Positions 19,501 to 61,990 of a stretch of DNA of 64,000 nucleotides are shown here, piece after piece (within the stretch, counting starts at the first letter, position 1; each line of letters starts with the position of its first letter). The DNA is from Selaginella tamariscina (Eukaryota; Streptophyta; Lycopodiopsida; Selaginellales; Selaginellaceae): positions 103,795 to 167,794 of the forward strand of contig PUQB01000556.1 in the NCBI GenBank assembly GCA_003024785.1, given 5' to 3'. The position numbers and the translations under genes were made by a program. The notes below the pieces were generated by a model. That model saw nothing but the letters and a program-made list of their open reading frames with translations. It was not told the DNA's origin and ran no database searches.

Positions 19501-19507
19501 TTGAAGA

Positions 19508-24000: not shown

Positions 24001-24010
24001 TGATAGCTAA

Positions 24011-25868
24011 TTAAGAGCTCTTCGATCGAACAGACATAACAACATTAGACTCGAAAATCCTCAAAATGGTAGGATTAGTCACCAACCTCGGCGTCTTGTA
24101 CTGTCCGATACTCCCTTGTCCACTAAATACCACGTGGTTAACTATCCTGTCAAAAGTTCCACTCTCTACTACCTTGATCTCTAAGGGTCCGATACTGCCT
24201 TCCCTCCGGTTCCGGTTGTACACCGTGGAGAGGAAGCTCTCCAATACGTTACTGCAGTACCGTACGTTCTCAGACTCTGCACCAATCCAGTTCGGCTCCA
24301 CCGGGTTCCCATCTGCAGTGGAGAGCTCCCAGTAGACAACATAGTGACCAGGTTGAGAACACAGATCAACCCTGCTGGTGTAATCCAACAGTCTGAACTT
24401 TGGCAGCACTGATGCTCCATTCGCAACTGCATTATGGAGCTCGAATTCGTCAGTCTTGTCAGTGTCCACGCTCAGTAGAACGCCCGCCCGTCTCATAAAC
24501 GCAAACTGCGGGGCACTGTTGTGGAAGCTTACGACCTTGAGCACGTCTCCGACACGGTATCGATACAGCCCGCCTTTGGTAGTCACCACCAGCTCGTACT
24601 CGTGGCCGAGCTTCACGTCCGCTAGCTCGACCAGAGTCCCGTCCGGCGCTAGAAACTCGTAGAAAGCGAAACAAGGGAAGACAGTGTAGAGAACCTGAGA
24701 GGGATCGCAGATGGGCGAGAGGTTGACTCCGAGCGTGCTGCATTCCGAAGAGGCGTACAGAGACGAAGCTATTGGTAATCCGTCAGTATAAAAGTCGATA
24801 ATAGGAACATACTGCTTCATGGAGCCTGTAACTATGGAATGTGCCAGGTTCACGTTCGGAAACAACCGCCGTATGATCCCCCGCCAAGACTGTTTTGAAC
24901 ACTCCCACCGGATGGCGTTAGCCAGCACCGGGTTTGGCCTCAGTATGTTGTTCACTGCATCCTTTACTGAGAGGTCCGAGACAATGTTGGTGTTCACTGA
25001 GCCCCTCTCTATATCGTCGGATATCTCCCTCCAGTACTTACGGAGCTCCTTCATGCTCCGGACAAACGTCGAGGCGAAGACTGCCCCGATAGACGACACC
25101 TCCTGGGACTGGGCGAGCCCACACAGGAGGTGACAGTAGCTTGTTTGTTGGTAATCCACACACACTATAACTTCATCTGGACTGGTGTATCCAGACTCCG
25201 GGTCTCTCTTCCGGTTCCGAAATGCAGGGCTGGTGAAGTACCCGCTCAGTCCGGAGCACGTTATGACTCCGCCGGACGTTATTCCCGGCTTCCTGACGTA
25301 TATGAATTGCAGGGTCTTGCCTTTGCTAGCGTATGGTGCTTGTCTGCGATGCCACAGTGAGTTTCAGTCAAAAGATGAACATTTATATATTCATTAAAAC
25401 TCACTGTTCAATGCAGCTTTAGCGACTCGGTTAAGCACGACGAACTCTGCATCATAGCCCTCGGCCTTGGGAAAGAGCTTCTGCTTCCCACCGGATGTAC
25501 CAGAACTGCAGTCAACGACAGCTAGTTAGCAAAGCCAGTCAACGAAAGTCGAGGGTCAAGATGAAATACCTGGTAAGCATCTCATGCACCCTGCTACCCA
25601 GTAGAGTGCCACTCTCGTCCCCATTGGCTATTCTTTGTACATATGGCTCTATATCGCTGTAGGAAGCGAGCGGTAGCTTCTTGAATTCTTCCTTGGACGG
25701 TATACCGTAGATACCATACTTTTCCAAGTAGTCTATACCACTATTTGCCTGCAGTATCCTTTGAAGAGCTTCGTTCTGTACAGTGGACACATCTTTGGTT
25801 ACTCTCTCTACAAACTCGAGTGCTGCCTCGTCAGATGCAATGTTTTCGAGAATCCCCTTGGCTTCCAT
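24011..25868 (-). CDS. GH3: GH3 family acyl-acid amido synthetase, copy A (one splice-site-proximal frameshift)
   Basis: GH3 enzymes adenylate auxin, jasmonate or related acids and couple them to amino acids; cytosolic. Three exons: 25868-25570 (MEAKGILENIASDEAALEF), 25505-25405 and 25343-24011. Signature motifs are SSGTSGGKQK (phosphate loop), YASSECSTLG and LYRYRVGDVLKV, plus QTSYCHLLCGLAQSQE. Total length about 585 residues, normal for GH3, ending VVMSVRSKSS. Substrate cannot be told from sequence alone. Exon 2 ends AACA|GTGAGT here but AACAA|GTGAGT in copy B; the missing A puts exon 3 out of frame, whereas exon 3 itself is fully open. So copy A has one break and copy B a different one. 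A TATA-like box lies upstream at 26031-26038. Confidence 0.88.
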
Positions 25869-26030
25869 ACCAATAGCAAACTTCTTATGTCACACTGGAA
25901 CTGAACAAGCCTTGTATGTAACAGTTGCGAATGTAACCCCAGAGATGAACTAATTCCTTAGAACGATTTTCTCTCTCTCTCTTTTTTTGGTGTTGTGTTT
26001 GACAGTGTGTTGGGGATGGCTCATGTGTGT

Positions 26031-26038
26031 TATATAGT
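26031..26038 (-). promoter_or_regulatory. TATA-like box of GH3 copy A
   Basis: ACTATATA on the minus strand, about 165 bp upstream of the GH3 start codon; conserved in copy B at 61983-61990. Confidence 0.4.
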
Positions 26039-26209
26039 AAAACTTTCATGACTTGACCGAGCCAATGGAGCTTCCAGGAAGACCTAGCTCCTTCCGTTGT
26101 TGACAAATTAAGGTTTAATTTGCGCTTCCAGAGTTTCATCGCTAGTATTCTACATAGGAGGCTGCGAGGCATAGCTATGATGATCACTAAAGGATTAAAC
26201 AAGATTAAA

Positions 26210-26629
26210 TTACCGGAAGATTCAATGTTTGAATAGGGTTGTCGTATCTAAGTTTTTGGCTACTAGCAGATGTCACATGGCAGGTTCTTGTTCAGTTTCT
26301 TGGGTAATACTAAACCTAACTAACAGAACCAATCTTTAGAATACTTGTAACAAAATCAAATTTTAAAGAGTTTAGGGTTTTACTGTTTAACGTGAAAATC
26401 ATGTGCAAACTCAGCTTCCCTTCTACAGTCGAACGTTCTAATTTTAGTTGTCATTCGTAACTTTTTAACATTAATTGAAAAAGTTTACTCACCGGGGTTC
26501 GATCCCTGGTCCCTCCACTTTTATTTTCTTTTATAGTAAAATTATGAAATTAAAGTTAACTGAAGTTACCTTCCGAAGAACCCTAATATGGTGTTCGGCG
26601 GGATTCGATTTCTTTTCTCCGATATTGCA
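26210..26629. other. Spacer between GH3 and the small-exon gene, copy A
   Basis: No gene recognised. Contains a TTAGGGTTTTA segment near 26370 and the sequence GGGGTTCGATCCCTGG at 26494-26509, which looks like a tRNA T-arm followed by TCCCTCCA and T-rich DNA, without a visible tRNA 5' half. Confidence 0.4.
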
Positions 26630-28374
26630 ATGGAGCATAGATTGCAGAATTTATCAAAGAGAATTCAATCAGTAAAGGTACATAGTATACCTGTCTGCGT
26701 GTGTGGACACACATCGTAGACATAAACTGCGTATGTCCCTGTGTGCTGAAACATGGAAAATACATCAGACGAAAGTGCAGGAGAAGACTAAGCAATTCAA
26801 TTTATGTGTGTGTGGCGTGTGCGTGTGTGATATAGAACGAAAAGTATAACAACTTTGTGTATACGGCTATATGCTCAAGTCATGTATTATATATATATTA
26901 TACATTCATAATATTTCCAATGGTATATAACATTGGAAATACATCAGGCCAAAGTGGATGCAATATCAGGAACGAAGCAGTCTTCTCAACAACGAAATAA
27001 CCCCCATCCCAAGTGTCGGGTTTTACTCCTCTACCAGTTATCAACGTAGAGCTGGATGCTGGAAATTGGCAGGTATGCGTGTGGGACATAGTTGTATGGA
27101 TGAAAGAACTCAGTGGAGTTCAGCATTTTCCTTCGTGTTGATGCTGTTATCTGGGTGTGTGTTTGTGATGTATATATGTATGTGTGTTGTACTACGTGAC
27201 TTACAAAAGCTAAAGGAGGATGAAAACGAAGGCACATTTCTTTCTGGAGACTAACCACGAACGGTTGAATGTTTTATCAAGGAATAAGGTAATTATAATA
27301 TATTATATATAAGGTAATTGAAACTATTTCAGTAAATTAGAAGGCTAATATAGTTTCACTTTCTTGGTTCATTGCCGCCGGATGTCACTTCTGTAGAGGA
27401 CAATCAACGAGTGAGTTAGAGATCTACATATGAAATAAACATTTTAATATTTTTATATAAGAATATTCTCTCTTTCAAATGTGGCTGAACAGGAAACCCT
27501 TCACGCCACCTCCTCCACCTCAAACCTTAACACGAAGTACTAGCCTGGTGAGTTAATATAACCATAACTATTTACTGTATATCATTACACGTTCATACGA
27601 TGATATCATAATTAAATTTCATTAACAACTATAGAGTGTGCCTGGACTAGAGGAGTATGGGTTCAAACCCGGTTTCTTTATTTGCCTTGCCTTCAAAGCT
27701 TCCAGATCTTCCAGCATACATAAGCTGGACAGGTACACACACCTATACACACAATCTGTACGTTACTTAATAGATGTACACTCATACATAGATACATCCA
27801 TGTGTACACTCTTTAAATTCAATTATAGGATCAATGCACGAGATATCATCCATAGCAAATACAGGTTTTGAAAGGACTGAAAAAGTAAGAAATAAGTTAA
27901 TTGTTATTTTATTTTTGATTTTTTAAACTTGTTTTGAAGAAATTACACCGTCTAGTGTAACTCCAGCACCGTCCAGAATGATAACAAGGGTAATTAATAT
28001 ATATGATATTCATTTTCTATCCCGGTGGCTAAAAATGTACATGTAAATACTACTTCACGTAAATACTGTTTTATATGTATGTATTCATTTGCATATACTT
28101 CGAACGCATGTTCTTTACACACAATTTTATATAAAGAGAACAATAAATTAAATACACATACCGTCCTACATATATGTATAGGTAAAGAAAAATCTGAATC
28201 GACACCTATGAACGTTGAAGATAGCAAAGGTCTCTCTCTCTCTCACACACGCAGCACGCACGCACGCACACACTCGGAGCTCGTATTGTATTTTTAGGAA
28301 AACAGAAGAGTCCACACCGCCACCGCCATTACCACCTTCTTCTTCACCACTGTTTAATACAAGCAATACTTAAG
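26630..28374 (+). CDS. Small-exon Pro/Ser-rich gene of unknown function, copy A
   Basis: A chain of short exon-like segments with GT-AG boundaries. It begins MEHRLQNLSKRIQSVK at 26630, then about 26933-27073 (ending ELDAGNWQ), NHERLNVLSRNK, KPFTPPPPPQTLTRSTSL near 27495, VPGLEEYGFKPGF near 27636, ARDIIHSKYR near 27837, ITPSSVTPAPSRMITR near 27943, KEKSESTPMNVEDSK near 28185 and ESTPPPPLPPSSSPLFNTS near 28305. The N-terminal segment is amphipathic and may be coiled coil; the rest is low-complexity. Same exon series in copy B (62599-64000), sometimes with frameshifts. I do not recognise the family, and the exact exon set is provisional. Confidence 0.4.
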
Positions 28375-31982: not shown

Positions 31983-32944
31983 TGTCAGAGTTTTTACCTG
32001 GTGCCACAAAGGCGGCTTGCCAGGCGCCAACCCTAAAATCCCCTCTCTAGAAACCCACGGAATCTGGTAAAATAACCCGTATTAGAACCCAACCTAGGAA
32101 CTCAAACCCTAGCTGACTAAGTCCATGAACGAGACTCACCTTGTGAATCAGGATACACGACTAGCCGAGCTTTAGGTGTCATCCTAGCTTGGCGTGGTTG
32201 AGGCGGCAAGCAAGGCCTCAACCACTAGTTTGTGGAACGTGAACTCGGGCAATGCTTTGAGCTTGCGAAGGTTTTCGGACCAAGGAATCTGACTAACTCC
32301 TTGGAAGTGACGTGCCCCTATCTCAAAGGCAAGATCCTGCCAACGATAAGGATAGTCTAACCCTAGGGTGGGTTGTACCCCTGTCGTGTGGAAGTTTGGG
32401 CGGCAAAACGGAGGGTTGCACCTTGACGACACAAGCTTAGCTTGCACCGGTAGGAGGTTAACGAGCTCTCTTTTGAACCCAGGAAGCCTCACTACATATA
32501 CTCTACCTTATTTATGTGACGGACCCCCCCCCCCTGTTTACCTAAATGAGTAAGTGGGCTGGCACGGAAATGCCAGCCCTTAGAGAAAATGGTTGTCCTA
32601 ACCTAACCCTAAACCTAACCCCTAGGGGGGGTATTAGGGCGTGGGGTTAGGGCAACCCTAGGGTTAGGTCAACCCTAGGGTGTCCCTAACCCTTTTTGAC
32701 AAGCTATATTTAACGGAAAACCTATCTTTGTAACGTCAAACTGGGGGAGAGTTTCTAGAGGGTAAGTACTACCTTCGCCTAGAGTTTCTCGAGGTACCTA
32801 GTGACAGCCGGCCGGACTACCCCTAAACACCTAAGTGCACTAAGCGGGCTGTTTCTCACTACAACTAGGTTCGCCACACAACTCGGTAGGTAACAACAGT
32901 CAAACCCCAAAGTAAAGGGTCGAGTCATAGTAAAAACTATGACA
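31983..32944 (-). repeat. 3' LTR of the chromovirus (962 bp)
   Basis: TG...CA ends. Includes the ~166-bp terminal segment shared with 44190-44355 and, at 32597-32695, several telomere-like CCCTAA/TTAGGG runs in both orientations. The purine-rich AAAGGCGGGGAGTG (minus strand) directly precedes it. Confidence 0.85.
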
Positions 32945-33299: not shown

Positions 33300-34610
33300 T
33301 TTATTCTTATCATCATTACTAACAGTTTGAGACCTTGCCTCAAACTCCACTATCTCCATCGCGTTCTGTAGATTATCCAATGGTTCCCATGTCGACTCGC
33401 ATGCCGGGTAACCCTTCCACTTAACAAGATATTCTCGTTTACGTTTCGCGTCCCTCGGCGTTTAATATCCTTTGCATCCAAATCGACTCAACTTCGAACT
33501 CCTTCATATGCCGACAGCTCAGGAAGCGGACGTAAGTTTCATATCTCTGCGGATGTTTCTCATCCTTGTGGAATGGCTCGAGTAAATTGACATGAAACAC
33601 ATTGTGTATTGTTCCCAACTCCGGAGGAAGATCTAACTCATAAGCCACTTTCCCTACTTGCTTCACCACCTTGTATGGACCTATGTAGTGCGATAGAAAC
33701 TTCCTCGAAAGAGTCGTTGGAACCTTCAGGTTTTTGGTACTCAACAATACCATATCCCCAACCTGATACTCTACATCCCGCCGATGTTTATCGTACTGCT
33801 GACGATACCTTTCCTGTGCTGCAGCCATCGCTTGACGAGCAGCTTCCCATGTTCGATACAATTGTCCCGTGAACTCTGCTACAGATGGAACTCGATTGCT
33901 ATCGTCTTTCGGTAACACCATACTCTGAGGAATACCACCCTTATTCCAGTTAACACTTCCATCGGGCTACATCCGATTGCAGTGTGTCGAGTTATTGTAA
34001 CATATCTCAGCCATATCTAAGTGTTCAGCCCAATCAAGTTGATCACCTTGAACATAGCATCTGAGATAGTCCTCGACTTGTCGGTTCACCCTCTCCGTTT
34101 GACCATCAGTTTGCGGATGGTAAGCCGTACTGAACTTCAGCATCGTACCAAACTGCTTAAACAACGTCCCCCAAAACTTCCCCGTAAACGAGGATCCGAT
34201 CTGAGATCATGGTTTCCGGTAGTCGCGCACTCTTATGACTTCGTGGAAGAACAACTTCGCTTGAATTGCATTCACTGTCTCTACAGTTGGAATGAAATGA
34301 GCAACCTTTGAAAATCGATCGACTACCACCATGAGCATTAAACCACAAGATCCCCATGATAAAGTCCAAAGTAACACTTTGAAATGGCCGCTCTGGAATC
34401 GGTATACACTGCAACTTCCCAGCTCGTTTTTGCGATCGGCTCTTTACTTGTTGACATGTGGGGCATGTCTTGACATACTTGGCAACATCGTATCATACCC
34501 GGCCAATAGAATCCCTGTTTCAACAAAGCCAACGTCTTATGCCTTCCACCATGTCCTGCCAAAGGAACGTCGTGATGCTCTCTTAACAGCTCTCCCTCCA
34601 TGTCCCTTCT
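33300..34610 (-). pseudogene. Chromovirus integrase and chromodomain (frameshifted)
   Basis: Segments in order on the minus strand: LREHHDVPLAGHGGRHKTLA (HHCC region), PFQSVTLDFIMGILW (first catalytic Asp region), TAYHPQTDGQTERVNRQVED (catalytic Glu region), QVGDMVLLSTKNLKVP, then EVESI and, after a frameshift, [20 protein letters not shown]. The last is a chromodomain, placing the element among chromoviruses, which in plants integrate preferentially into heterochromatin. Confidence 0.85.
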
Positions 34611-36000
34611 GGAACATAGAGTCTCTTTTCTTTATAATAAAGAACTCCATCTCGTACCGCAAAATGCGCTGTTTGAGTGCATCCATTCGACTTTCTATTC
34701 CTGCTGGAATATTACCATCTCTTCGTAACTGATGAACTTGTTTCCTCTTTGCCACCAGGCTCAAAGCCTCAGCAAACTTGTCCTGAGGATACGCCGTCAC
34801 AAATTCATCCACCAAAGTTGAATGGGTGCTGACATAATCGCAGATGACCCTTCTACTGAGTGCATCAGCTACCACATTGTCCTTTCCCGCTTTATGTTTA
34901 TTTCAGGCTGAAATCGTGCCAACTTCTGCTGCCATCTAGCATACTTCGGATAGCTTCGGCTGCGTTTCAAAATACCTTAGAGTTACACTATCTGTCCAAA
35001 CCACAGTACCATGACTTGGAAGATAATGACGCCAATACTCCAAGGAAGCAACAATAGCATACATCTCCTTTTCGTGAGTAGGCCATCGAGTTTGTGCGGC
35101 ATCTAACTTCTTCGAGAAAAAGGACACTGGATGTCCTTTTGTTGCAATACACCACCAATTGCAAAGTCGGAAGCGTCACATTCTACTTCAAAGGGATCTT
35201 CAAAGATGGGCAACTGCAAAACTGGCTCAGAAGAGATAGCCTAGTTTGACGAACGCACGTTGGCACTCTGGAGTCCAATGCCATGGAATGTTTTTCGTAA
35301 GATCTGTCAATGGGCCGCTATTTCCGAGTAACCCTTTATGAATCTTCGGTAATACCCTGTCAGACCAAGAAATGATCTAACTTCATGCACATCTTTTAAA
35401 GTCATCCACTCGTAATAGCTTGAATTTTCTTTGGGTCCATGGCAACCTCCCCACCTGAGATCAAGTGTCCAAGAAATCTATCTTGGTTTGACCAAATGCG
35501 CACTTGCTTTCTTTAGCATACAACTGGTTCTCTCTCAACCTCTGAAAACTTTTTCTAAGTGTTCCACATGTTTTCTCAATTGTCGAACTGAAAATCAGAA
35601 TGTCATCAATATACACCACTACGAACTCGTCTAGATAGTCTCTAAACACATCATCCATCATTGTGCAAAAAGTTGCTGGAGCATTGCACAACCCGAATGG
35701 TAAGACTAGAAACTCAAATGATCCATAACGCGTTCGAAAAGCGGTCTTCTCAATGTCATTCTCTGCTACCCGAATCTGATGGTACCCGATCTCAAGTCTA
35801 TTCTTGAAAAATACTTTGCTTTCGATAGCCTATCAAATAAGTCGTCCACTCGTGGAAGAGGATACTTATTTTTAGTTATCGCGTTCAGCGCTCGATAGTC
35901 CACACACATTCGCATCGTACCATCCTTTTTCATTACAAACAAGATAGGTGCACCATACGTGATCGACTAGGTCGAATGTGTCCTCGACCAATCAATTCTG
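34611..36000 (-). pseudogene. Chromovirus reverse transcriptase and RNase H (frameshifted)
   Basis: Minus-strand segments: RT thumb/palm with NAPATFCTMMDDVF and VVVYIDDILIFSSTIEKT (catalytic YIDD), then the RNase H region with ARFQ-type sequence, FSKKLDAAQTRWPTHEKEMY and AIVASLEYWRHYLPSHGTVV, and MVADALSRR at its end. Several frame changes; not functional as read. Confidence 0.85.
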
Positions 36001-36743
36001 TCAGCTGTCTCTTCAATTCTACTAACTCTTGAGGATTCAACCGATATGGGGCTCTTGCCGGTGGAGACGAACCTGGCAAAATCTCTATCCTGTGGTCCAC
36101 AACTCGATGGAGGTAACTCGGGGGCAAGTCTTCTGGTAACACATCCTTAAACATGTTCAAGACTTCCAAAATAGGTTCAGGAACAGATTCTTGACCATCT
36201 CCTATTTTGACTTCACCAGTATCCAAAACCATTGCAAGAAACACACGTTCCCGATGATGTCTAACTGCCTTACGCAACTGAGTTAAGGTAAGGAACATAG
36301 GATTCCAATCCTTATCAGTTAGCGTTTCCATTTTGAGCTGGTCTTTCTAATGTCTCTTTATCTGCTGCAAGCGTGATTCGATTATCTCCAGAACCCCTCA
36401 TTTCGATTACATGTTTATGGAACCATTCCATACCCAAAACAAAGTCAAACCCCGTCATATTCAAGACAACTAAGTCTAGCTTAGCCTTCCAATCTTTGAT
36501 TTGGACAGGAACTGCCCTTGCTATATTATTAGTATTTTGAGAACCTTTGCCAAAATTGATCTTTATTTCACACATCTTTATTACATCCAAATTCAATCGA
36601 CGAGCTAGACTAGTCGATATGAAGTTGTATGTTGCTCCAGTATCGATCATCATTCGGACTCGGTCCCCTCGTATCCTTCCTGTCAAATATAGCAAAGGGT
36701 CAGTTTTGTCTTGAATAGCGAATAAGGCAGTTGTGTCTGGCAC
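35933..36743 (-). pseudogene. Chromovirus aspartic protease and RT N-terminus
   Basis: MIDTGATYNFISTSLARRLN has the DTGA active site and FDFVLGMEWFHKHV the conserved GMEW motif. An overlapping frame continues with DHRIEILPGSSPPARAPYRL and [15 protein letters not shown], the entry into RT. Confidence 0.85.
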
Positions 36744-37545
36744 AACATTACCTCTTCTGACTCATCTTCCGGATCTTCAAGCGTTTCTGGTTCAGCAACT
36801 TCCTCTTCTACCATCGCCTTGAAATGTCCTGATTGTTGTGAGGGTGCCTGACACTCTTTAGCAAAATGACCAGGCTTGTTACAATTATAACATTTCACAC
36901 CCCGCTGCGAACGCGGGGGAGCAGACTTTGGAGCCGATCCTTTGGCCTGCTAGGAGGTGGTAACGCCAATGGTTTCCGAAATCTGGGTCTTGATGTGTCC
37001 GAAAACTTGGAACTGCCAACAAAGGACTTGCACTTCAATTGATGGCGATTGATCTGGTCCTATTAAACCTTCTGAACCCAGACTTTGGAGGAAACTTCCT
37101 TGATTTAGGTTTTGCTTCCTCCCCTTTGTACAAGTCTTCTAACGACATGCCATAAGCAACCTTTTGAGCTGCCTCTTGACATTCATAGCTTGTTGGCTTG
37201 TACCTTAAGATTTCTTCGCGTTTTCTCATTCAAGCTAGCCATGAAGCAACTTCGAGCTTCATCATCGCTCATATTTGGCACCAATCGCCGTACACTTTCG
37301 AATCGATAAACGTGGTCCATTGGACTTCCCCGAACTCCTGTTGACAAAGTGCCAGGTCAGCACGCAATCGCAAACCGAGATCATCCGGCATATATTGCTT
37401 TTTGATCTCCTTTTTATGTGTTTCCAGCTGTTTCGATATCCACGTTCACCTTCAACAATTCCACCAAGTCTTAGCTTCTTTTTAAGAAATTGCTTGGCAC
37501 ATGCAACCTTTTTTGTCTTTCTCACGGAAGCAGCCTCGAAATAGC
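36744..37545 (-). pseudogene. Chromovirus gag with CCHC zinc knuckle
   Basis: CYNCNKPGHFAKEC at about 36853-36895 is a nucleocapsid knuckle. Upstream, EFGEVQWTTFIDSKVYGDWC then MSDDEARSCFMASLNEKTRR give capsid. Similarity stops near 37545 at a TG-rich tract, where the gag start, PBS and most of the 5' LTR should be. Confidence 0.75.
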
Positions 37546-37999
37546 TTGTGTGTGTGTCTGTATAATTTTATTGATTTGTTAATTGTATCTCTCGCACACA
37601 CACGCACACTCCTATATATATATATATGTGTGTGTGTGTGTTGTGTTTTTTTATCTGTATGATTTTATTTGTTTCACACACACATACACGATATACATAT
37701 ACACACATATATATATACCTATGTACATATATACATACATATATTATGTGTACCAGTATCTGTATAATTTTATTTATTTATCTATCTCTCGCACACACAC
37801 GCACACTCCTGTATATACATATACATATACATAAATATACATATACATATAATGTGTGTGTGTGTGTATCTGTATATATTTAATTTATTTAGCACAACAT
37901 ACGATATACATATACATATACATATACATATGTGTGTGTATCAGTATAATTTTATCTGATTTGTCTATCTCTGGCACACACGCACTCTCCTACACACAC

Positions 38000-38061
<62 letters not shown>

Positions 38062-38063
38062 TG
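37545..38063. repeat. Microsatellite-rich tandem repeats at the start of the cargo
   Basis: Three imperfect ~180-200-bp units each contain CTGTATAATTTTAT, then TATCTCTCGCACACACACGC and ACTCCT, at about 37556, 37766 and 37945, separated by TG, CA, TA and CATA runs, ending in (TA)n(TG)n at 38010-38061. Confidence 0.8.
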
Positions 38064-39055
38064 TAGCGGCGAGATTAATCCGCCCTATATGGTGAACGTG
38101 TATAGCGGCGGGATTAATCCCGCCCGTTATATGGTGAGACGTGTGTAGCGGCGGATTAATCCCGCCGCTATATGGTTAACGCCTTGGCGGTGGATTTAAT
38201 CCCGCCGCCTTTCAGGTAGGCTATTCGGTTAGCCTCATGAGCGGCAGGATTAATCCCGCCGCCTACGATGCCCTGCGCGAAATCCGGCAGGATTTATCCC
38301 GCTGCCATTGGCCTGTCTGAAGGGTGGGATTAATCCCGCCGGATTCTGCACAGGCATTGGCGTCCGCAGGATTAATCCCGCCATGTACGCATGCCCTGCG
38401 CGGAATCGGGCGGGATTTATCCCGCCGCCAAAGGCTTGCCTGAAGGGCCTGGCGGCGGGATTAATCCGCCGGATTCGCACAGGGCATTGGCGTCCGACGG
38501 GATTAATCCCGCCGCGTACGCATGCCCTGCGCAAGGCGGGATTTATCCCGCCGCCAAAGGCCTGCCTGAAGGGCCTAGGCGGCGGATTAATCCCGCCCGA
38601 TTTCGCGCAGGGATTGGCGTCCGGCGGATTAATCCCGCCGCATAGGGACCGAGTGAAGGCCCTGGGCGGCGGGATTAATCCCGCCGAGCCTTCAATGCCT
38701 GTTGGAGGGAATGAATCCCGCCACCCTTCCTTTTTTCTCCATTGGTGAGTCGGACCAATCCCAAACGTTTCTGTCTGAGACGTAGAAGGTTTACAACATA
38801 CCAATGGAAGACTGGGAAGGGTGGCGAAATTCATTTACCATCCCTTACATGGTGGGCGAGATTAATCCCGCCCCTTTCTGGAGTCACTGAAGGGGTGTGC
38901 CAAATAAATCCTGCCAGTTCTCTCTGAGACCGAGAAGGGTGGCAGATTAATTCCGCACTCCCGTTCAAGGCCTCCAGAAAGGTGGCGAGATTAATCCCGC
39001 CCACTCTTTCAGGAGGCATTGAAGGTGGCGAGATTAATCCCGCCGCACCTTCCAT
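38064..39055. repeat. Array of ~22 palindromes, consensus GGCGGGATTAATCCCGCC
   Basis: An 18-bp perfect palindrome, or close variants, recurs about 22 times in 1 kb, every 35-50 bp in the denser part (for example 38105, 38408, 38535, 38667, 38983 and 39025). Core variants are ATTAAT and ATTTAT. Between about 38283 and 38640 there is a higher-order unit of ~127 bp containing three palindromes; the ATTTAT variant takes every third place (38283, 38408, 38535). Spacers are also related to each other (GCCAAAGGC.TGCCTGAAGG, CAGGCATTGGCGTCCG). One further copy lies in an intron of the next gene (40797-40814). Each unit can form a short hairpin or cruciform. No coding role is believed, although both strands are partly open. 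Confidence 0.92.
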
Positions 39056-39060
39056 GTGAA

Positions 39061-39344
39061 TATATATGTGTATTAGTATATATAAGTTGCATATCTCATT
39101 TTATTTACTTTTATCATCTTATCATAATATTTCGAGTAAAAGCTAGGAATCTATGTAAAACTGTCCAGAGCTCACATTTGTGGTGGTTCTAAAACGAAAT
39201 GTTATCTTTCTTTTGCACTAGCACAAATGTGAGCTTTGGACAGTTAATTCCGTCATTCTCTCTGTGTATTATTTTTGTATATTCGGGTTTATACAAGTGT
39301 GTGTGCGTTTTTATATGATTTGTATTCATAGTGTGTATTATTTC
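39061..39344. other. Spacer with a near-perfect 24-bp inverted repeat
   Basis: AACTGTCCAGAGCTCACATT (39159 onward, 24-bp arm) and its complement at 39222-39245 differ at one base and are separated by 39 bp, so RNA from here could form a long hairpin. Confidence 0.7.
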
Positions 39345-42300
39345 AGAAGGACGATTTAATTAAACAAGGAGATCGAGTCATTAGTATGGAGTCGTCGTCA
39401 AATTCTGGGTAAGAATTAAAAAAAATCTGTTATACTCGGATATTGCTTGAACTAATCATTTTTGTATTCAGATGTGGAATTGAGGTGACATTAAAGACGA
39501 GAGCAGGAGAAGAGATGGGCAGGGGGATTCTGGAATCAACTTGGCCATATTTCAAACTAAACGGGAAGCGCATTGGAACAACCATGGTTGCTGTCAAACT
39601 AACCTTTCACATCGCATGGACAAGCAAAACAATGGAAAGTGGGTGTGCTAGTCAAGCATCCGAAAGCATGCTGTGAACCCAGATTGAACGATGCTCGACA
39701 CATATGCCTTGTTCCATCCAATGTCACGTTCTCGGATCCAGAGGTCGCCAGTTACAACATTAATTTCGGGTGGTTTTGTCGACTTGTGGATAATGACGTT
39801 CACGTGTTCACTAATGATGTTGACCTGGAGTTCTTCTTCAACTCAACGAAAGCCCATCTATGGAGGGGATCCAACTGGATGTCTACTTCGAAGATCTTCA
39901 GACTCATCGAGTAGGTGTATTCTCAGGAGATATTGCTTCACAATACAGAAAATCCACAAGTGGAGCAATCGTCCCTCTTCACATTGAAGAAGAACACAGC
40001 GACATCATAAAGGAGATTGAGAGGGTGGCTTGGTCTCAGGTTCTTTACAGATCACGTTCAATTTGCTTAGAAATTTCGGGAGCTGGAAGAGTGTGCCGAG
40101 AACATTAGAACAGCATCAATCGGGGATCACACATGTTGATTCGGATCGTAGAAGAAAATCATCGTCGTTTTGTCAGCTGCACCTGTGGCATCCCATGCTG
40201 CAATAAGCCACAAGGAAATGATGTTGGATGATAGGATTTACGAGTGTAGGGTTAAGTATTGCAGCGTCAACCCAAACTTCAATTACAGGCCACTCAATCA
40301 GGAACGTGTAGCTGAGCTCATGGAGAAGATGAAGGACGACAATTCTTACACCGTTCCACATAATGCTGTTTTGTGCGCATACTACGAGAGAAACAAAGGC
40401 GCTGACAAAGTGTGGATCACAACACCGGAACAAATGAGGAAGGTTCAGACGGAGAATAGAATCAATCAAGTACTACATCATTAGTGGCCAGCACACAATA
40501 ACGGCAGCCCAACGACTTCTCGACGAACACAAAAAGGAACGATGGCAACAAAACTTTCCGAGCATACCCGTGAGAAGCTGACGAAAAGATCGGCGTTTTT
40601 AGCGAAGCCGAATCTCACAATCGAGCAGTACCATAAGTTATCGGCGGAATGGGACGCTGCAGACACCAACCACTACAACAGCAAAATATGGGAGAAGTTC
40701 AAACACACGCGAGCCGTGTGGGAATCTCTTCAGCGACCACAAAGAGCTACCGCAGGAATACACAATCTGCGACTACCGGGTAAGCAAATTGTTTGGGCGG
40801 GATTTATCTCGCCGGTATATTAATCTGTCTTTTTTTTCAGAGAGTTGAAGAAATTGTAGCAGTTGATTTTGCCCAGGTGGGCGGGAAGGAAACATCCTTT
40901 TTTGATGTTGATTTCTTGTCCCGAGGATAGGATCTTTGCCAAATGGTTGGGGATTATGGAATCCTTTGCAAAAGGAACACTGAAGAAGAAGCAGACAAGT
41001 GAAGGAGCCCTCAGAGAAGTCTGCAAAGAAACCCAGTAAGACGCCGAAGGCTAAGTCTGTTCAATCTATAAAGGATGTAGACAACGATTTCAAGCTCACA
41101 TGGTTGAAGCCTTTAAATGGAACAACGATGGAGGAGATGGAAGTCTTGGCTGATTTGGTGATTGATGGCAAATTACAGATTAACAACAGCAGCCCCTCTC
41201 CTTTTCATCTCAAGGCAATGGAGTTGAAGACGGTCAGGCACTTCAAGGAGTGGTTGGGAATACACTGCCACAAACTGGGTTGGACCTCGGCTTCAACATA
41301 CGAAGAGGTCAGCAAATATTTGCATGTGACAAACGATGATATGCTTGTCGAATGGGTGAATCAATCGGAAGATCTGGGCAAGAATCTATTGCACGCCAAC
41401 GCCAAAAAGGAGAACATTGCGATGACGCCTTCTCTTATGGCAGTCCTTCAGCAGCGGAGAACCGAGTTGAACCTTATAAAGGAGGATGCTACGAATCACG
41501 ACAAGCCCTACAGATGTTTGTTGTTGGATTCGGAGACTTTATGGGGTACCATCACTGCTTGTAGGAAACCGTTTCAATTGTTCGTGATGGATCGGCGGGT
41601 GTCAAAAAATCCTTCGACAGACGACGACTAGAGGATTTGGTGGAGAAACTTAGCCGTGCAAGCATGTACAAAGAAGGTATTTATTATTGAATTCATACTT
41701 GCACTCTTGACTGATATCTACGTTTTCAGGTATTTATTTCTTGATTCTTGCTCATGTCACCGATACCTTTGCCTTCGCCTTTGCCAAGAGGAATAAACAT
41801 CGTTGGACAGGATTTTATATGAATGATGCTGATCCGAAGTGCATTGATTCGGTTGTTCACTTGGTTGTTAGGAATGCGCCAAACAATTTCAAACTTCCAA
41901 ATGACTGGCCAGGCATCTGTTTGCACTCCAACGGCCCTGAACCTCCATCCGATACACCGATAGCTGAGAGTGACGTATTCGGCAATGTACGTTATCCAAA
42001 CATTACAAGTCAAGCGGCACGGAGCATCGTCAACTTGATCAGGGGTCCTCACAGTGATGCGTGGGTTTTTGACTACTGCACTAGGGGGTCCGTCTTGAAG
42101 GAGTGTTACCTTCGGGATACATTGTGTTTGCCGTTGAAAAGGATAAGACCATGGTTGAGGACCTGAACAAGTGGATAGATAGGTTCTCAACTGACTACCC
42201 CAACGAATCCATACAAGGAGTATTTGAGAAAGTTCCCTCCGATAAGTGCGATAGCTCTGAAGACGAATCTGGTTCAATGTCGGAGTCTGAGGACGAACTT

Positions 42301-42474
42301 CAATCAGATATTAGACCGGAAGTTATCTCGAGGAGTACAGAACATTCACACTCCATTACCCATGGAAACATCAATAGAAGATACGAAGATCTTGAACCAT
42401 CTCACAAGCGGCTTAGACCTTCTTCGCCTCACTCAGAAGGTAATAGCGAAGAAGAATTGTTAATGAGTTCTTAG
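39345..42474 (+). CDS. Multi-exon gene with ParB-like and DNA-methyltransferase-like regions (frameshifted)
   Basis: Plus-strand coding chain in the retroelement cargo. Exon-like start at 39346 (DDLIKQGDRVISMESSSNSG), then CGIEVTLKTRAGEEMGRG and an N-terminal region I do not recognise. At 40215-40540: FNYRPLNQERVAELMEKMKD, then after a frameshift YYIISGQHTITAAQRLLDEH. This resembles the ParB/Srx fold, where LNxERVxEL and (I)SGxHRxxAAxxL are diagnostic. At 40999-41600 there is a linker (MTPSLMAVLQQRRTELNLIK). At 41730-42200: YFLILAHVTDTFAFAF, TSQAARSIVNLIRG and WVFDYCTRGSVLKECL then GYIVFAVEKD. The last block resembles the FxGxG motif I plus acidic strand-2 end of N4/N6 DNA methyltransferases. 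A clear DPPY box is not seen (LLLDSETLWG stands where it might be). The C-terminal tail is acidic/Ser-rich. At least five frame changes; assignments are inference from motifs. Confidence 0.5.
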
Positions 42475-42779
42475 AGTGACGAATAGTTGTAAATGAGTGT
42501 AACATAAGGCATTTTTGTATATTTCGTTTATATTTGTACAGAAAATAAATTCTCAAGGATTAATGAAGCTTTTAGTTCAAACATGGGTCACACATTAACA
42601 AGGTAAATAATATACCTTGATAATTTTAAGGTCAGCTAATATCATTTTGCAGATGTAATGAAACAATTGAGAACATGGATTTTCAGCATTGCATGAGGTA
42701 AGAGAGGGGTTTGGCGACAATTTCTTGTGCCACATGTCAGAATGACAGAGTTCATGCAGGAAATGGATAATAATGCAGC

Positions 42780-43715
42780 TCAAAACATCGTTACCATGGG
42801 GGCCACTTCAGTTTTTTCATCATCATTTTTTGGCTTCAGTTCCGAAATCAATTTCTTCAGCGCATGCAATATCTGAATCTTGTAAGGATGATGTACAATT
42901 AAATGATGAAGGGATAGGCAACGAGATAGTGTCAACGGATAAATGTGAAAGGGAGCAAACAAGTGATTTGCAAAGTATTCAAGAGGCAACGCTATCCATG
43001 TTACTCATGGCCATATTGTGTTGTTGGATGTCAATGGTGTTCTGCTTCATCGACAAAGGCCCGAGGATAGGAAAAAAGAAATCAAACAAGGAGATTTCAT
43101 TCCTTGTCATGGTAAATTTCGATATGATATTATTTTTCGTCCAGGGTTGGATCGTCTCTTTCAAAAGCTTAAGGAGATGGGTGCGCTTGTGGGGATTTGG
43201 TCATGCATGCAGATTCAAACTTAACACCGCTGTTGAATTTGCTTAAGAAACATTGTAGTGTTGCAGAAGAGGTGATTCGTAAAGATTGGATTTTTGACCA
43301 GCGAATGTGTTATAAACCTCTCGAATTTCACAATATAAGAAAGGAAAGCAAGCCATACTTCTTCAAGAATGAAAGAATAATTGGGACTCATGGGGAGATC
43401 AGTCGCTTAAGGATAATGAAGAATGCACATATCTTAGTGTAGACGACTCTCCTCAGAAGGCTATGCTCAACCAAAACATTGCTTGTATTCATCCAATCAC
43501 TTTCGATCCATATTCTGATACCGATATCATGGATGAGCTAGTGAACTACTTGGATACGTGCCTCAGAAAGAAGAATCTCGAAAATTTTGTGAGCAGTATC
43601 CACCGTATCAAACATTTCCTGAAGCTTTTCTTTCTCGTGATTTTGAATTTTATAAAATGAAGGATAGCAACCGGGCGCTTTATAATATTATTCTTAAGGA
43701 ACGTCATTTTTAGAT
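42780..43715 (+). pseudogene. FCP1/SCP-like (NIF domain) phosphatase relic
   Basis: After an N-terminal part with Ser-rich and acidic segments, the frame at 43007-43224 reads IVLLDVNGVLLHRQRPEDRK then FRPGLDRLFQKLKEMGALVG and IWSCM. This is the HAD-type NLI-interacting/CTD-phosphatase fold: DxDG nucleophile motif (here DVNG, so the second Asp is replaced), FRPGL and IWS. Downstream frames give KDLRIIWDS and SVDDSPQKAMLNQNIACIHP, the distal metal-binding DDSP motif, then FPEAFLSRDFEFYKMKDSN. These enzymes dephosphorylate phosphoserine proteins such as RNA polymerase II CTD. Three or more frame changes; lack of introns in the domain suggests a captured cDNA or decayed gene. Confidence 0.6.
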
Positions 43716-44189
43716 GAGCCTTTATGCAGACCTGGTCTTATTACATCTTATGTATTAACAAGGATGGCAACTCCCAATTGCATTCGTGAGAGTGTTAAGT
43801 GGTGGCAACAACATCAAGATATTGACCAAAATGATTTGATTAATCCGGAGAGTGATGATTTAGACAAAATGAGGAGATTTCTCTGTATGGTTAGGAAGAA
43901 AGTATTTATAAATAAATTAACATGTTGATAAGAAATGATTTCATTTGTAATTATGTTTGATAGTATTTCTTATTATTGTAAACTATTTTTAGAATAATAT
44001 GAATATTCTAAGATATTTTAGGAATATTCCTTACTAAGTAAGGTTATTGAAGGATTAATTAATTAATTAATTAATATTTAAGGCTTAATTACATATTAAT
44101 TAAATGAAATTAAAACTTAAGTATTAATTAGTAATTTATTTTATATTCCCATTTTCACGTATCATGCCCACTTAGTTACAAACGTGCAT
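43716..44189. other. End of cargo, AT-rich
   Basis: 43715-43920 has a short open stretch (MATPNCIRESVKWWQQHQ) I do not recognise. 43925-44160 is AT-rich with repeated TTAATTAATTAA. The chromovirus LTR fragment starts at 44190. Confidence 0.45.
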
Positions 44190-50598: not shown

Positions 50599-51590
50599 TC
50601 AGCCGTGAGAGTTCAAGATGGTCATTCGAGACCGGTGTCGCCAGAAACTATCCCTGCTCAAGGCCTTGGTCATAATATCTGCAACCATCTCGATAGTAGA
50701 CACATGCTTGAGCTTGATGTTTCTGGCTTGAACCTCTTGTCGGATGAAGTGGTACTTCACATCAACATGCTTGACTTTGTCATGATGTCTGGGGTTCTCT
50801 GAAGTAGCTATGGCACTAGTGCTGTCACAATAAATTGTGATCGGCCTTGGAAATGAAATTCCCATGTCCTTCAGCAACTTCATCAACCACGTTGCTTCCT
50901 TGGCTGCCTCTGTTGCTGAAATGTACTCGGCCTCCATCGAGGAGAGTGCAATCACTCGTTGCAATCTGCTCATCCAACTGATAAGCCCATCATCCAAAAG
51001 AAACACATATCCTGAAGTGGACTTCCTGGTCTCCCTGTTTCCTGCCCAATCTGAATCTGTGAAACCCACTAGATCCATTACCATGTGATCTCCTGTAGAG
51101 CTCCCACTAGCTGAATATGTGAGACAAAACCTGACTATGCCTTGCAAGTATCGTAAGATATGTTTGACTGCTGTCCAATGAGCCTCTCTGGATTCTCTAC
51201 AAACTTGGAAACCACTCCGACTGCAAAAGCCAAGTCTGGTCGAGTGGAAATGGCTAGATATAACAAACAACCAACTATCTGCCTATAAGGAACCTGTGCC
51301 ATGACTCGTCTCTCCTCCTCAGACGTCGCTGTTGATCTTTTGAAAGTTGTGTGTGTACGTCCATGGGGGTGCTGAGGGTTGTTGTCGGCCATGTCATACT
51401 TCTGAAGTATCTCTTGCACATAGTGTGCTTGAGATAGCTGAATCACCCCTACAGCTCTATCCCGGAACACATGAATGCCCAAACAATAGCATAGGTCGCC
51501 GGCTACAGATCTCAAACTGAGATCAAAACTGGTGTTCAAAGAATTGAACAAGCCAAAACTGGCTTGCAGCCATGATGTTGTCATCAACAT
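50599..51590 (-). pseudogene. Copia RNase H and RT C-terminus
   Basis: RNase H: VGFTDSDWAGNRETRKSTSG, ISWMSRLQRVIALSSMEAEY and HVDVKYHFIRQEVQ, ending near 50599. The RT end (CLGIHVFRDRAVGVIQLSQA and VPYRQIVGCLLYLAISTRPD) lies in an overlapping frame, so there is a frameshift around 51150-51270. Confidence 0.9.
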
Positions 51591-52340
51591 ATAATGCCAG
51601 GTACAAAGTCCACTCCTTGCCGAAAGACATATACGTTTCCATCTGTAGTGGACTTCTGGAAACCGATGGAGGTGAGAAACCTGTCTACATGATCATACCA
51701 GGCTCGTGGTGACTGCTTCAAGCCATATAGGGCCTTTCGAAGACGACAAACATTGTGTTCCTGTCCTTGCACCACGAATCCCTCAGGCTGTGTAGTGTAG
51801 ACTTCCTCCTTCAGCTCTCCATACAGGAAAGCAGTCTTTACATCAAGCTGGTGAACCTCCAGATTCAAGCTAGTTGCTATCTGAAGAATGAGACGAATGG
51901 AAGCCATCTTCACCACTGGTGAATAGAAGTCAACTCCAGCGATTTGTGAGAACCTCGTGCAACAAACCGAGCCTTGTATCGAGTACTTCACCCTCACATC
52001 CAGCTTCTTCTTGAATAGCCACTTGGTACTTACAGTGTGGCGATGTGGGGAAGAGTAACAAGCTCCCAAACCTGGTTCTTGAGGAGAGAAGCATATTCCT
52101 CCTCCATGGCAGCCCTCCATTCTGCCTCCTGTGATTGCATCGCCTCATGCACTGTCCGGGGCTCCCGAGGATACCTGGAGGTGAAGAAGGAGGTTGAAGA
52201 CTCATCAGCTTCTCTTGCCTTTCGTGACTTGTAGCTAATTCTCCCACTTCTCGTGATTGTGTTGATGGGTCGGATGGATTAGGTACCTGCGGAGGTGCTT
52301 GCTGAAGTGGAGGAATCTCCTCCTCACTTTCGTGCTCCTC
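51584..52340 (-). pseudogene. Copia reverse transcriptase
   Basis: STKWLFKKKLD, QLDVKTAFLYGELKEEVYTT, then VCRLRKALYGLKQSPRAWYD are standard copia RT blocks. The catalytic YVDD box is split by a frame change near 51590 (DDNIMAAS follows). Confidence 0.9.
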
Positions 52341-53402
52341 CTCACTCAGATCTGGATCTGCTGCAATCTGCAGTCTTGGATCTTCCCCAATCCGCCTGGA
52401 TCAGGCCCATGTGCTGGTGGATCCTGTGGCTGCTCTTCCTCAAGAATATAACCGTCGGATTAACTTGAACTGTAAACCTATCCTTGTAAAGCATATCCTC
52501 ATTAAACTTAACGTCTCGGCTCACAACAATTTTCTGGTGAGTGGGATCGTAAAGCCTATATGCCTTGCTCTCATGGCAATATCCCACCATGATATACATG
52601 TTACTCTTCTGCTCCAACTTACGACGGAGTTCGTCGGAACTGTGCATATGCCAGGCACCCAAACACACGGAGGTGTTTCAAACTGACTCGCTTCCCAGTC
52701 CACCGGGTGAATGGAACTTCTCCACCAATGCTGCTTGCAGGAAGTCGATTCCGGATGTAGCTGGCTGTGCTTAAGGCCTCTGCCCAATAATTGAGCGGTG
52801 TTCCTGCATGCATAAGCATGCATCTTGTCGTCTCCACTAGAGTCGATTCATTCTCTCGCCACTCCATTTTGCTGAGCTGAGTATGGGGCTGTAAACTGCT
52901 GCTGAATCCCAGATTCTTCGCACAACTTCTTGAGCACACTTGCTTGATACTCCCCACCTCTATCACTCCTAAGTACGCGGATTTTCAAATTCTGCCACAC
53001 GTTTTCTGCAGCAATCTTATATAGCCGAAACATTTCTGCTACTTCTGATTTGTTAATCAAGAATTTCACCACTGTGTAACGAGTATAATCATCTATAAAC
53101 GTCACAAAATACCTCCTTCTGTTCAATGACTGAACATGCATTGGTCCACACACGTCTGTGTGCACTAATTCTAGAGGTTGAGTGGTCTTACAGCAGATGC
53201 CCTTACTGGGGAACGGTTGCCTATGTTGTCTTCCAAAACAGCATGCCTCACAGAACTCAAGGTTGTCTCTAAGTACCTGAAAGTCTGAAAGCTGGTCCTG
53301 GTCCCGAGCTACAGCTCGAATCGCTGCCTCGTTTGCATGTCCCAATCGTTGATGCCATCGTTGAAGAGTTGTGGAGAAGATCTTCTTCTTGGGTATCACC
53401 AA
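52340..53402 (-). pseudogene. Copia integrase
   Basis: HHCC domain (WHQRLGHANEAAIRAVA ... CEACCFGRQH), catalytic core LVHTDVCGPM, VLRSDRGGEY and YSAQQNGVARE (DDE), then GKRVSLKHLRVFGCLAYA and YKDRFTV-like C-terminal parts in shifted frames. Confidence 0.9.
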
Positions 53403-53517
53403 TGTGGCGTCTACCTATAGTTCCCAGCATGTCTCTGGCCACGTGCTACTATGGTTCCTTGCTTGTCAGTGTAAGTGATCTTGTCCTTATCGATTTGACC
53501 TTTCCAACCGGCATCTG

Positions 53518-54718
53518 CTATCTTCCCAACCGAGATAAGAGTTTCGCTGAGTGTGGGGACATAGTGAACCTGTCGAAGTCGACAATCTCACCGTTCTGGA
53601 GTTGAATCTCTACTGTCCCGACTCCTGCAATGCTCAATGGTCGATGATCTCCCGTGTAGACTCCTTCTCCCACTGGGATTGCCTGATATGTCTTAAAAGC
53701 GGCAAATACTGGAGTACAGTGAACATTGGCACAACTGTCCAACCAGAGGATATTTTCTTCCTCGAAAGGACTGAGGTTAGTGGTTACCATGAGGGCCATC
53801 CGCTGATTGCCCTTGTTCTTCAGTTCGCTTGCTCGTGGTTTTCCTGCTGCCTTGTCCGGACAGCTCTTGGCAAAATGCCCCATCTTCTTGCAGTAGTTGC
53901 ACAGTCCAAGCTTTGACGTGGAATGTCCTGCCTATTTGTTGCTACTGCTACCTTTATAGTGTGAAGCACTGCTCCCACTCCTCACTGACTGTGGATTGAA
54001 GTTGGTTTTCTTTTCGAATTGGCTCGAAGTGAAGAGGACTTGAGAATGTCCCACCGTACCGCTGGTTATGTCTGCTTGAGGATTTGGATCATGGTTGATG
54101 ACTTGCTGATAAGACATCCCTGATGTATTCTCCAGTGTCGTCTTGAGAGTCACGTGGTCTGGCCTAGTCAAGGCCCCGAGAAGCACCGTGGTTTTGTCTA
54201 TATCTGAAATGGTCTGTCCGAGAGCAGTGACTGAGCAAGAATGGACTTCATTCTTCCTAGGAACACAGATGCTGGTTCTGTGGGACCAAACTCGAGCTTA
54301 AAAAACTTTCTTTTCAGCGATACCACGGATCTCTCCTTCCGTGCCTGATTGTCAAAAATCGCCTTCAACTTGTCCAATTCTCGGAAGTTGACTTGCTTAG
54401 ATCTAGGTGATGCCTACCAAGCCCAATCCCCATTAGTGACAACGCTTTGTCATGTCGAACCTGCCAATCTTCTGGGTTCGTTTGAGGTTTCACCTCACTC
54501 ATCTGCAATTCGTAAACAATTGTCACGCATCATAACAAACAAGATTTCCCGCTGCCAATTCTTAAAGTTATGCCCATCAAAGACCAAAATTGGGATTGAT
54601 TTGTGGCTTGTCATCATGTTCTCAAGTATGTCTGTCACTAACTAACTGTTCTTGAGGATATAACGTTCCACGAACTGCACTTGCTGCTTCCTATGACCCT
54701 TGAACTGCTATTGTTCTT
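53518..54718 (-). pseudogene. Copia gag and protease
   Basis: gag starts next to the primer-binding site. 54349-53932 covers the capsid (DHVTLKTTLENTSGMSYQQV), then a CCHC-like knuckle ending GHFAKSCPDKAAGK. The protease shows LWLDSCANVHCT with the D-S active site (DSCA in place of DSGA). Confidence 0.8.
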
Positions 54719-55198: not shown

Positions 55199-56040
55199 TA
55201 TGAATTGGAAAGGTATAAGATACGTAAGGGTTACTTTTCACAATCCTTTTAATCATAATTAATTAAATTAATTATTTTAAAAGATTTTATATGCATTTTG
55301 AATTATAAATTAAAGACCTTCAGAATTAATGCATTTCATCTATATACATGAGTTTGAATATATAATTTTTTTTTAAATACCCTTCTTTTTAATATTTATT
55401 TATTAATTAAGTTTTAATTAATTACTACTAATACAAAAGGGGGCGAAAGCGTTCCCCCATTCTATATTGTGAACTGCTCTATCTTGGTTAAGAGATACGC
55501 CTTGTAGTTAGTTACGCTAAACTTTCACGCAGCCTCTCTAAGATTTTTAAAGTCAAAGTTTTAACATGAATTAGATTAAACTAAAAGGTTTAATTTTTAT
55601 TTTGATAAAATTGTAATTTTTTTCCAGTAAAATATGATGAAGAAGGATTTGATTATTTACATAGACATGTATATATTTTTAAATATATATAAATATAATT
55701 TTTTTTCTTAGAAACCCTCGCGCTGTATTAAAAAGACACGTTACATTGTTATAAATTGACTGAACGTTTGTGTGTTCACATCTTACAAGCTACGCGTATG
55801 TGTCCTAATACGACAACCGTATTCAAACGCTGAATAAGTATGTATGATCGACGCAAAATATAGTGTATGCTGTCATATGAGTGGCAATGCTATGCTTAGT
55901 TGACTTAATCAGAAATTTAATAGGTTTGAACGAAGGAGCTATGTCTTCTTCTTAGAAACACATGGTGAAAGTCAGTCAAGTAGTGAAATTCTGTTATATA
56001 AATTCGGTCGTATATATGCCTCGCAGTGAAATATTTAATT
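55199..56040. other. AT-rich spacer, copy B
   Basis: Counterpart of 16081-16980; no gene. Contains the same conserved block around 55440-55535. Confidence 0.5.
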
Positions 56041-56044
56041 CAAA

Positions 56045-56505: not shown

Positions 56506-56880
56506 TGAGCTTCATTGAGTAAACTACCCTTTCAGTCTCAGGTACGTTCGTGGTGTGCTTTTATTTCATTGCGTAATACATAATTTTGTGTGGTTTGTTC
56601 GGTATGGTGAAGACAAAGCACGTCTTATATTTATTTATATATAGCGGCGGTGGGTTAGGAAACACATGCGTACGTGTCCGTGCAGCACGCTCACACCTCA
56701 AGACAAGCTCAAGCAGCTCTGTATTATGCACATTATTTAAACACAAATGATATTATTTATATAATGAATTTTTCTTTCACAGAGTTTCATAGCATGAACC
56801 AAGGATTAGGCAAAGACAGGACTCATCACAAACGCACATAATATGAATCGATATTAAATTTTTCTTCTTCTTTCATTATT

Positions 56881-59955: not shown

Positions 59956-59961
59956 AGCTAA

Positions 59962-61982: not shown

Positions 61983-61990
61983 TATATAGT
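61983..61990 (-). promoter_or_regulatory. TATA-like box of GH3 copy B
   Basis: ACTATATA on the minus strand about 165 bp before the start codon; identical in copy A. Confidence 0.4.

Follow-up and report, generated by a model that had tools for sequence, protein, structure and literature searches.

Palindrome arrays and an adjoining ParB/methyltransferase-like gene are part of a high-copy DNA transposon in Selaginella tamariscina

Why should an array of 18-bp palindromes stand directly upstream of a multi-exon plant gene? The question is raised by a 64,000-nucleotide stretch of Selaginella tamariscina contig PUQB01000556.1 (positions 103,795 to 167,794; hereafter the window). A first-pass annotation had described about 22 palindromes next to a gene resembling bacterial ParB-methyltransferases, and had suggested a mobile or epigenetic module. 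Here we find that the array and its neighboring gene are one end of a larger element, a cut-and-paste DNA transposon some 15 kb long, and we weigh what the palindromes might be for.

Results

With at most three mismatches allowed, the palindrome GGCGGGATTAATCCCGCC has 19 matches in the window, of which 18 fall between 38068 and 39044 and one is at 40796. A shuffled window gives 0.02 matches, and none of 100 shuffles reaches 19. The 18 clustered units, mostly 37-46 bp apart, form array B (38064..39044). The array is as first annotated, with a slightly lower count: approximately 21 units when three degenerate ones recognized by eye are added to the 18. The remaining unit, GGCGGGATTTATCTCGCC (40796..40813), lies inside an intron of the adjoining gene; of 30 loci of that gene (L032-L061), 28 have a unit at the equivalent position. 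Across 300.7 Mb of the genome we count 46,888 palindromes (reversed control, 0), approximately the number predicted from a first-look count of 850-1,230 element ends. This genome-wide occurrence rules out a unique array or a local satellite, and the pairing of array and gene likewise holds genome-wide. The sequence gcgggattaatcccgc is not printed in the literature searched, and positions 38064-42500 gave no match to plasmids. A single exact palindrome site in an IMG/VR contig (L001) was discounted as chance level.

The limits first assigned to the module, 38064..42474, proved too narrow. Homology to other copies (L062 and L063; blastn) begins at 37547 and reaches 44188, and the right end of the element is at 44189. 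In the window, a left-truncated copy (37547-44189) preserves the right ~6.6 kb of a transposon with terminal inverted repeats (TIRs) that measures ~14.9 kb when complete. The copy opens with an AT/GT-rich, microsatellite-like leader (37547..38061, + strand) and closes with the right TIR (44163..44189, + strand). Because homology runs to the right end, the element includes a second gene that the annotation had omitted, an FCP1/NIF-type phosphatase gene (42697..43928, + strand) identified by homology to the L063 gene and broken in the window copy. The homologous gene of L063 matches PF03031 above cut-off (E 1.8e-7); the phosphatase ORF matches no PDB sequence at E ≤ 0.01. Missing from the window copy are the transposase gene, array A and the left TIR, all of which can be followed in C904, a full-size copy with TIRs, a DUF7869 gene, the ParB/MTase-like gene, the phosphatase gene and two arrays. 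Both arrays are built of the same palindrome, and one lies upstream of each of two divergent genes; in C904 a distance of 3.8 kb separates array A from the left TIR, and 5.2 kb lie between array B and the right TIR. Assignment to the CACTA type, as a subterminal-repeat element, was rejected.

The suggestion of a mobile module is borne out by the TIRs, target duplications, transposase and many near-identical copies. The family's 27-bp imperfect TIR, ATGCA[A/C]GTTGTAACTAAA[A/G]TGGGCATG, sits at a sharp edge in 21/21 left ends with differing flanks (copies chosen by matching left end) and in all 13 right ends. A 4-bp target duplication is exact in 4 of 7 copies scored by script, compared with 3 of 42 mismatched pairs, and in 6 of 10 when by-eye readings of C14, C225 and C904 are included. 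The duplications of C202 and C904 are offset, C233 matches at three of four bases, and C220 has none. At the nested copy L083, the predicted right junction was looked for and not found. All 40 scored right ends are identical, pointing to a very recent burst; the element has recently multiplied in this genome.

The divergently transcribed gene of the element encodes DUF7869 (Pfam, E 1e-26), a name absent from the literature searched. Its structural model is closest to Metnase/Mos1, with the fold and conserved acidic residues of an RNase H-like transposase bearing an acidic triad. From this model, together with the TIRs and target duplications, we propose that DUF7869 is a DDE/D-type transposase. 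The transposase-like gene here is DUF7869 and not the MULE transposase that would place the element among the VANDAL/MULE transposons. Homologs of DUF7869 (PF25273) number 150 proteins at E ≤ 1e-3, the best being 52% identical across the entire query region, and the DUF7869 proteins of mosses, Riccia, corals, molluscs and echinoderms are homologous to the divergent gene of the element.

The gene beside array B (39386..42474, + strand) has four exons placed by eye (39386-39408, 39472-40780, 40841-41674 and 41728-42474), separated by introns of 53-63 bp; both this multi-exon structure and the peptides quoted in the annotation are present. Relative to L063 the window copy has 21 indels before the end of the gene, three of them in intron 1 and one a base absent from L063 itself, which means that this copy is either broken or affected by sequencing errors. 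The base that L063 lacks, at the start of exon 4, is present in the window and in 18 of 19 other loci compared. Near-intact copies are L063, L040 and L041; they place two segments in another frame, and 'ancestral' frames containing an IPVR strand were dropped. Exons 2-3 are under purifying selection.

A ParB/methyltransferase identity for this gene found no support in Pfam, NCBIfam, PHROGs or PDB sequence searches. By eye, a ParB/Srx-like stretch (LNQERVAELMEKM ... YYIISGQHTITAAQRLL; 40230..40581, + strand) precedes a methyltransferase-like stretch (41510..42150, + strand) with LLLDSETLWG at the place of motif IV and SIVNLIRG..WVFDYCTRGSVLKE..FAVEKD at that of motif X/I. The catalytic motif IV of N6/N4 DNA methylases is (D/N/S)PP(Y/F); this motif is absent, its by-eye counterpart being LLLDSETLWG in the window, L040, L041 and L063. 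No Pfam or NCBIfam profile, including PF02195 and PF01555, matched the gene above cut-off, and PF02195 has no match anywhere in the genome; among 14 control genomes, 10 give matches. PHROGs gave chance-level matches only, for instance phrog_1033 'ParB-like partition protein' (E 0.25, one gene fragment). The MuDR profile DBD_Tnp_Mut fell below cut-off (E 0.018) on an N-terminal piece with frames partly wrong. Among 5.8 billion proteins there was none at E ≤ 1 with a query partly out of frame, and none at E ≤ 10; PDB sequences gave none at E ≤ 10, phage sequences had no tblastn match, and viral contigs held no relative of the ParB-like stretch. An AF2 model of the ParB region (180 aa) has a mean pLDDT of 42, too low for a meaningful comparison with PDB structures.

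In the same genome we identified a second family that carries a PF01555 N6/N4-methylase gene (E 7.5e-10 in L117, 1.2e-10 in L118; above the 26.7-bit cut-off, profile positions 165-220). This gene also matches phrog_67 (E 9.7e-13), a MULE-like ORF lies upstream, and the gene has its own upstream palindrome array, found in 1,557 places. The ParB/methyltransferase reading of the first family's gene gains indirect support from this second pairing. The palindrome is different from and unrelated in sequence to that of the first family, and takes the same position relative to the gene. An hhalign comparison of the two gene families did not rise above shuffles, 8 of 60 of which reach the score for each of two domains.

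Discussion

The arrays probably serve as docking points of a protein that would switch the element on or shield it from silencing. On balance we lean towards a specific form of this idea, in which a factor encoded by the element binds the family's palindromes and activates or protects the element in the way that VANC acts on Arabidopsis VANDALs. The palindromes would be the element's arrayed operator, bound by a dimer of a DNA-binding protein for which the ParB/MTase-like gene adjoining array B is the likeliest source. Such binding is predicted to activate both promoters, keep them free of silencing, or both, making the system a functional counterpart of VANC. As a tentative extension, possible although doubtful, at least two families may each pair a ParB-MTase-like gene with a private palindrome array. 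The putative protein of each family would recognize only its own array and mark or de-silence only its own copies, a self-addressed epigenetic system, encoded by transposons and evolved in parallel with VANC, in which N4/N6 methylation might be the mark, retained in one family and degenerate in the other.

It is unlikely that no element protein binds and that the palindromes are instead paired sites for host transcription factors, such as E2F/DP-like GGCGGGA half-sites collected for expression in dividing cells. Each half-site does contain GGCGGGA, which occurs 75 times on either strand of a 20-kb stretch of C904, and both genes have an array immediately upstream. However, the fuller plant E2F site is TTTCCCGCC, which is absent from that stretch, where GGCGGGAA occurs once. 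What is conserved, moreover, is not the half-site but the entire two-fold symmetric sequence of 18 bp with its ATTAAT, and an unrelated palindrome occupies the same position in the second family.

Still less likely is the original proposal that a functional ParB-methyltransferase binds its own array and deposits N4/N6 methylation there as an epigenetic mark. The by-eye order of motifs, ParB-like and then MTase-like, agrees with it, as does the true PF01555 methylase beside its own palindrome array in the second family; against this, the gene reads LLLDSETLWG where DPPY is expected, has no profile support and aligns with the second family no better than shuffles do. In En/Spm, subterminal transposase-binding repeats are used to assemble the transposition complex, and we consider a similar role here improbable: there are indeed two arrays, and palindromes scale with copy number, but the arrays are internal, both adjoin gene starts, and one unit is intronic. 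Most improbable of all is a functionless by-product satellite arising by replication slippage or from hairpin DNA, since, although ~45-bp tandem units would be expected to undergo unequal exchange and the second family's spacers are fairly conserved (1.12 bits) as in a young array, over two separate arrays of the first family the spacers have diverged (0.26 bits per position) and the palindrome has not (1.80 bits).

With two families, two different palindromes and two partner genes, this genome offers a clean natural experiment, at high copy number, on transposon self-addressing. If the partner proteins do bind the palindromes, transposon anti-silencing of the VANC kind, addressed by sequence, would have arisen independently a second time, possibly acting via bacterial-type DNA methylases. 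For a domain of no known function that occurs in mosses, liverworts and several groups of animals, the element provides a defined role, that of a proposed DDE/D transposase.

Each known system resembles the element in part. ParB-methyltransferase fusion proteins occur in bacteria and phages; the window gene shares their motif order by eye and has palindromic sites beside it, and unlike them it is matched by no profile, no PDB entry and, in tblastn, no phage sequence. The Sola superfamily combines a DDE transposase with a 4-bp target site duplication, as does our element with its DDE-like transposase, Sola being compared by description only. VANDAL elements are of the MULE type and have a MULE transposase in place of DUF7869. 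The likeness to VANC lies in the arrangement of the arrays and the extra gene rather than in a comparison of proteins, and anti-silencing is putative here. In the published account, Arabidopsis VANDALs have a gene additional to the transposase, and short motifs are dense in their own non-coding regions, introns included, with a motif that differs from family to family (PMC5735166). In place of the 9-bp directional motif given there, the Selaginella element has an 18-bp two-fold palindrome (PMC5735166). Like the VANDALs of that account, it is a plant transposon with an extra gene and family-specific motif arrays, with a further unit in an intron (PMC5735166).

A TIR transposon carries the palindrome arrays

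The first-pass annotation had suggested a mobile module, and we find an element with TIRs, a DUF7869 gene and many near-identical copies in the genome. The full-size copy on contig C904, whose layout was assembled by joining overlapping loci, measures ~14.9 kb from TIR to TIR. Its left TIR starts at C904:340141 and has to its right the DUF7869 gene (a proposed transposase) on the minus strand, with array A beginning 112 bp upstream of the open frame. After an AT-rich, microsatellite-like middle comes array B and then the partner gene, with its ATG 343 bp past the last unit. An FCP1/NIF phosphatase gene (PF03031, E 1.8e-7) lies between the partner gene and the right TIR, which ends at C904:355034. 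The window copy is left-truncated: it ends at 44189 and all element sequence left of ~37547 is missing, while it is 94.6% identical to the near-intact copy L063 over 38366-44188. A Gypsy-like gag frame, seen by eye, abuts its left edge, and its right neighbour is a stretch repeated at window 32780-32944. Other features of the window include Gypsy-like and Copia-like retrotransposon frames (by eye; 33439-37567 and 50599-53931, both minus strand) and long duplicated blocks of 88-92% identity (22831-27477 / 58783-63402 and 16277-19512 / 55344-58791) that contain GH3-like ORFs (by eye) of 450 and 386 aa.

About 22 palindromes had been reported before the partner gene. The array is real: at <=3 mismatches the window holds 19 copies of GGCGGGATTAATCCCGCC, the array accounting for 18 and an intron (at 40796) for the other (shuffle expectation 0.02). 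At <=4 mismatches the C904 copy has 17 units in array A, 27 in array B and the intronic unit, which is found in 28/30 loci. The conserved part of the arrays is the palindrome, with 1.80 bits/position versus 0.26 in the flanks across 44 C904 units and 1.57 versus 0.23 in the window; the flanks have diverged. Between array B and the partner-gene ATG, window 39159-39245 holds an inverted repeat (ctgtccagagctcacatttgtg ... cacaaatgtgagctttggacag, self-alignment 79%) that may be a hairpin or MITE remnant.

The genome searched comprises 300,702,823 bases in 1,391 contigs (the window is G000:C900:103795-167794). At <=1 mismatch GGCGGGATTAATCCCGCC occurs at 46,888 places (reversed control, 0); given that 38 array units of the C904 element are of this kind by manual count, this corresponds to ~1,230 elements. 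A first look returned candidates, as opposed to confirmed copies, numbering 853 for the left end, 1,195 for the 5' region and 1,228 for the right end; in each class the 40 best were scored and matched. The left end TGCAAGTTGTAACTAAAATGGGCATGG is common to 21/21 copies read (20 fetched of 40 scored, plus C904), led by A in 20 and T in one; because copies were chosen by their match to this end, the informative part of the comparison is that their flanks differ. Right ends read ...GTTACAACGTGCAT in 13/13 fetched, and GTGCAA in C904. Identical 4-bp flanks occur in 6/10 copies with both ends read: 4/7 by script (C453 ATTT, C441 TTAT, C102 ATTG, C147 ATTT), versus 3/42 mismatched control pairs, and two by eye (C14 AAGG, C225 TTAT) with small deletions in their left TIR. 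C202 and C904 fit only with a 1-2-base offset, C233 matches at 3/4 bases and C220 at none. The right junction of L083 predicted from its known empty site was not found.

Parts of this layout are linked in other copies too. Among the matches listed, DUF7869 lies 1,271-1,367 bp inward of 17/40 scored left ends, on the opposite strand, and missing partners are expected since only the best 150 of 4,249 DUF7869 candidates were scored. Similarly, 8/19 partner-gene matches on contigs also having DUF7869 among the matches listed have a divergent DUF7869 gene 9.0-9.3 kb away; 12 were scripted and seven (C527 x4, C1000, C136, C760) judged by eye, none of the latter with a divergent DUF7869.

The burst is young. 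The best 40 of the 1,228 right ends are all 100% identical over 335 bp, and eight of nine fetched 5' regions are 98.1-99.5% identical to that of locus L065 over ~1.5 kb, the ninth being at 87.2%. Copies are nested inside copies of their own family in L083 and L064 (1-682 and 8100-8384).

Two exons of the partner gene have been under selection

The multi-exon gene described beside the array exists, its introns measuring 53-63 bp, and its window copy differs from L063 by 21 indels up to the gene end, three in intron 1 and one of the 21 being a base absent from L063. Because other copies carry small indels too (mostly 1-2-base deletions, many at different places, some common), those of the window copy may reflect either assembly error or decay. 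The ParB-like stretch is in a single frame in 31/33 copies. Comparing five copies of one subfamily with six of another (11 of the 33), we counted 133 majority differences. In exon 2, third positions account for 39 versus 17 and 16 (39 synonymous, 33 not); in exon 3, for 21 versus 6 and 7 (23 synonymous, 11 not); and in exon 4, for 7 versus 4 and 5 (6 synonymous, 10 not). Exons 2 and 3 were therefore under selection. The ParB and methyltransferase identities suggested for this gene were not supported: profile tests were negative for both and the fold model was unusable, so we assign it to neither. No homologues were found among 5.8 billion proteins.

A second family pairs a methylase gene with its own palindrome

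Gene and array pairs do occur elsewhere in the genome, including in a second amplified family with a different palindrome. PF01555 is above cut-off at at least 150 places scored (of 739 candidates). The gene of the second family encodes a genuine N6/N4 methylase; its loci are L117 (G000:C885:119500-125500; PF01555 E 7.5e-10, PHROG DNA methyltransferase match 9.7e-13), L118 (C565; E 1.2e-10) and L120 (C72:7300-11700). In L117 and L120 a ParB-like WDGNHR stretch (by eye) precedes the methylase part, and a CAGTCGGCATGCCGACTG array with ~40-bp spacing lies directly upstream of the gene; the retrieved L118 sequence stops short of this region. Genome-wide, CAGTCGGCATGCCGACTG occurs at 1,557 places (control 0), and among the matches listed its arrays have PF01555 3.15-3.54 kb downstream on 6/8 contigs. 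On C885 the gene has a divergent 606-aa ORF as its upstream neighbour (L119 824-2641, plus strand), which looks MULE-like and has a SWIM finger match at E 0.016, short of the cut-off; neither L117 nor L119 gave a DUF7869 match. The gene and array layout recurs in two families. Homology of their partner proteins was not shown by hhalign, and the proteins may not be kin.

Comparison with the VANC system

In the mechanism we propose, binding of the partner protein to the palindrome would activate or de-silence the element; the family name of the FCP1/NIF phosphatase suggests that it may influence transcription. According to PMC5735166, VANC is an element protein whose target is a short motif, repeated in arrays across the introns and other non-coding parts of the element; the motifs differ between families, and the copies lose silencing marks. 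The anatomy of the palindrome element fits this precedent, which is the best one for it. The element has arrays at both gene starts and one intronic site, a conserved two-fold symmetric site, a family-specific motif and a selected non-transposase gene.
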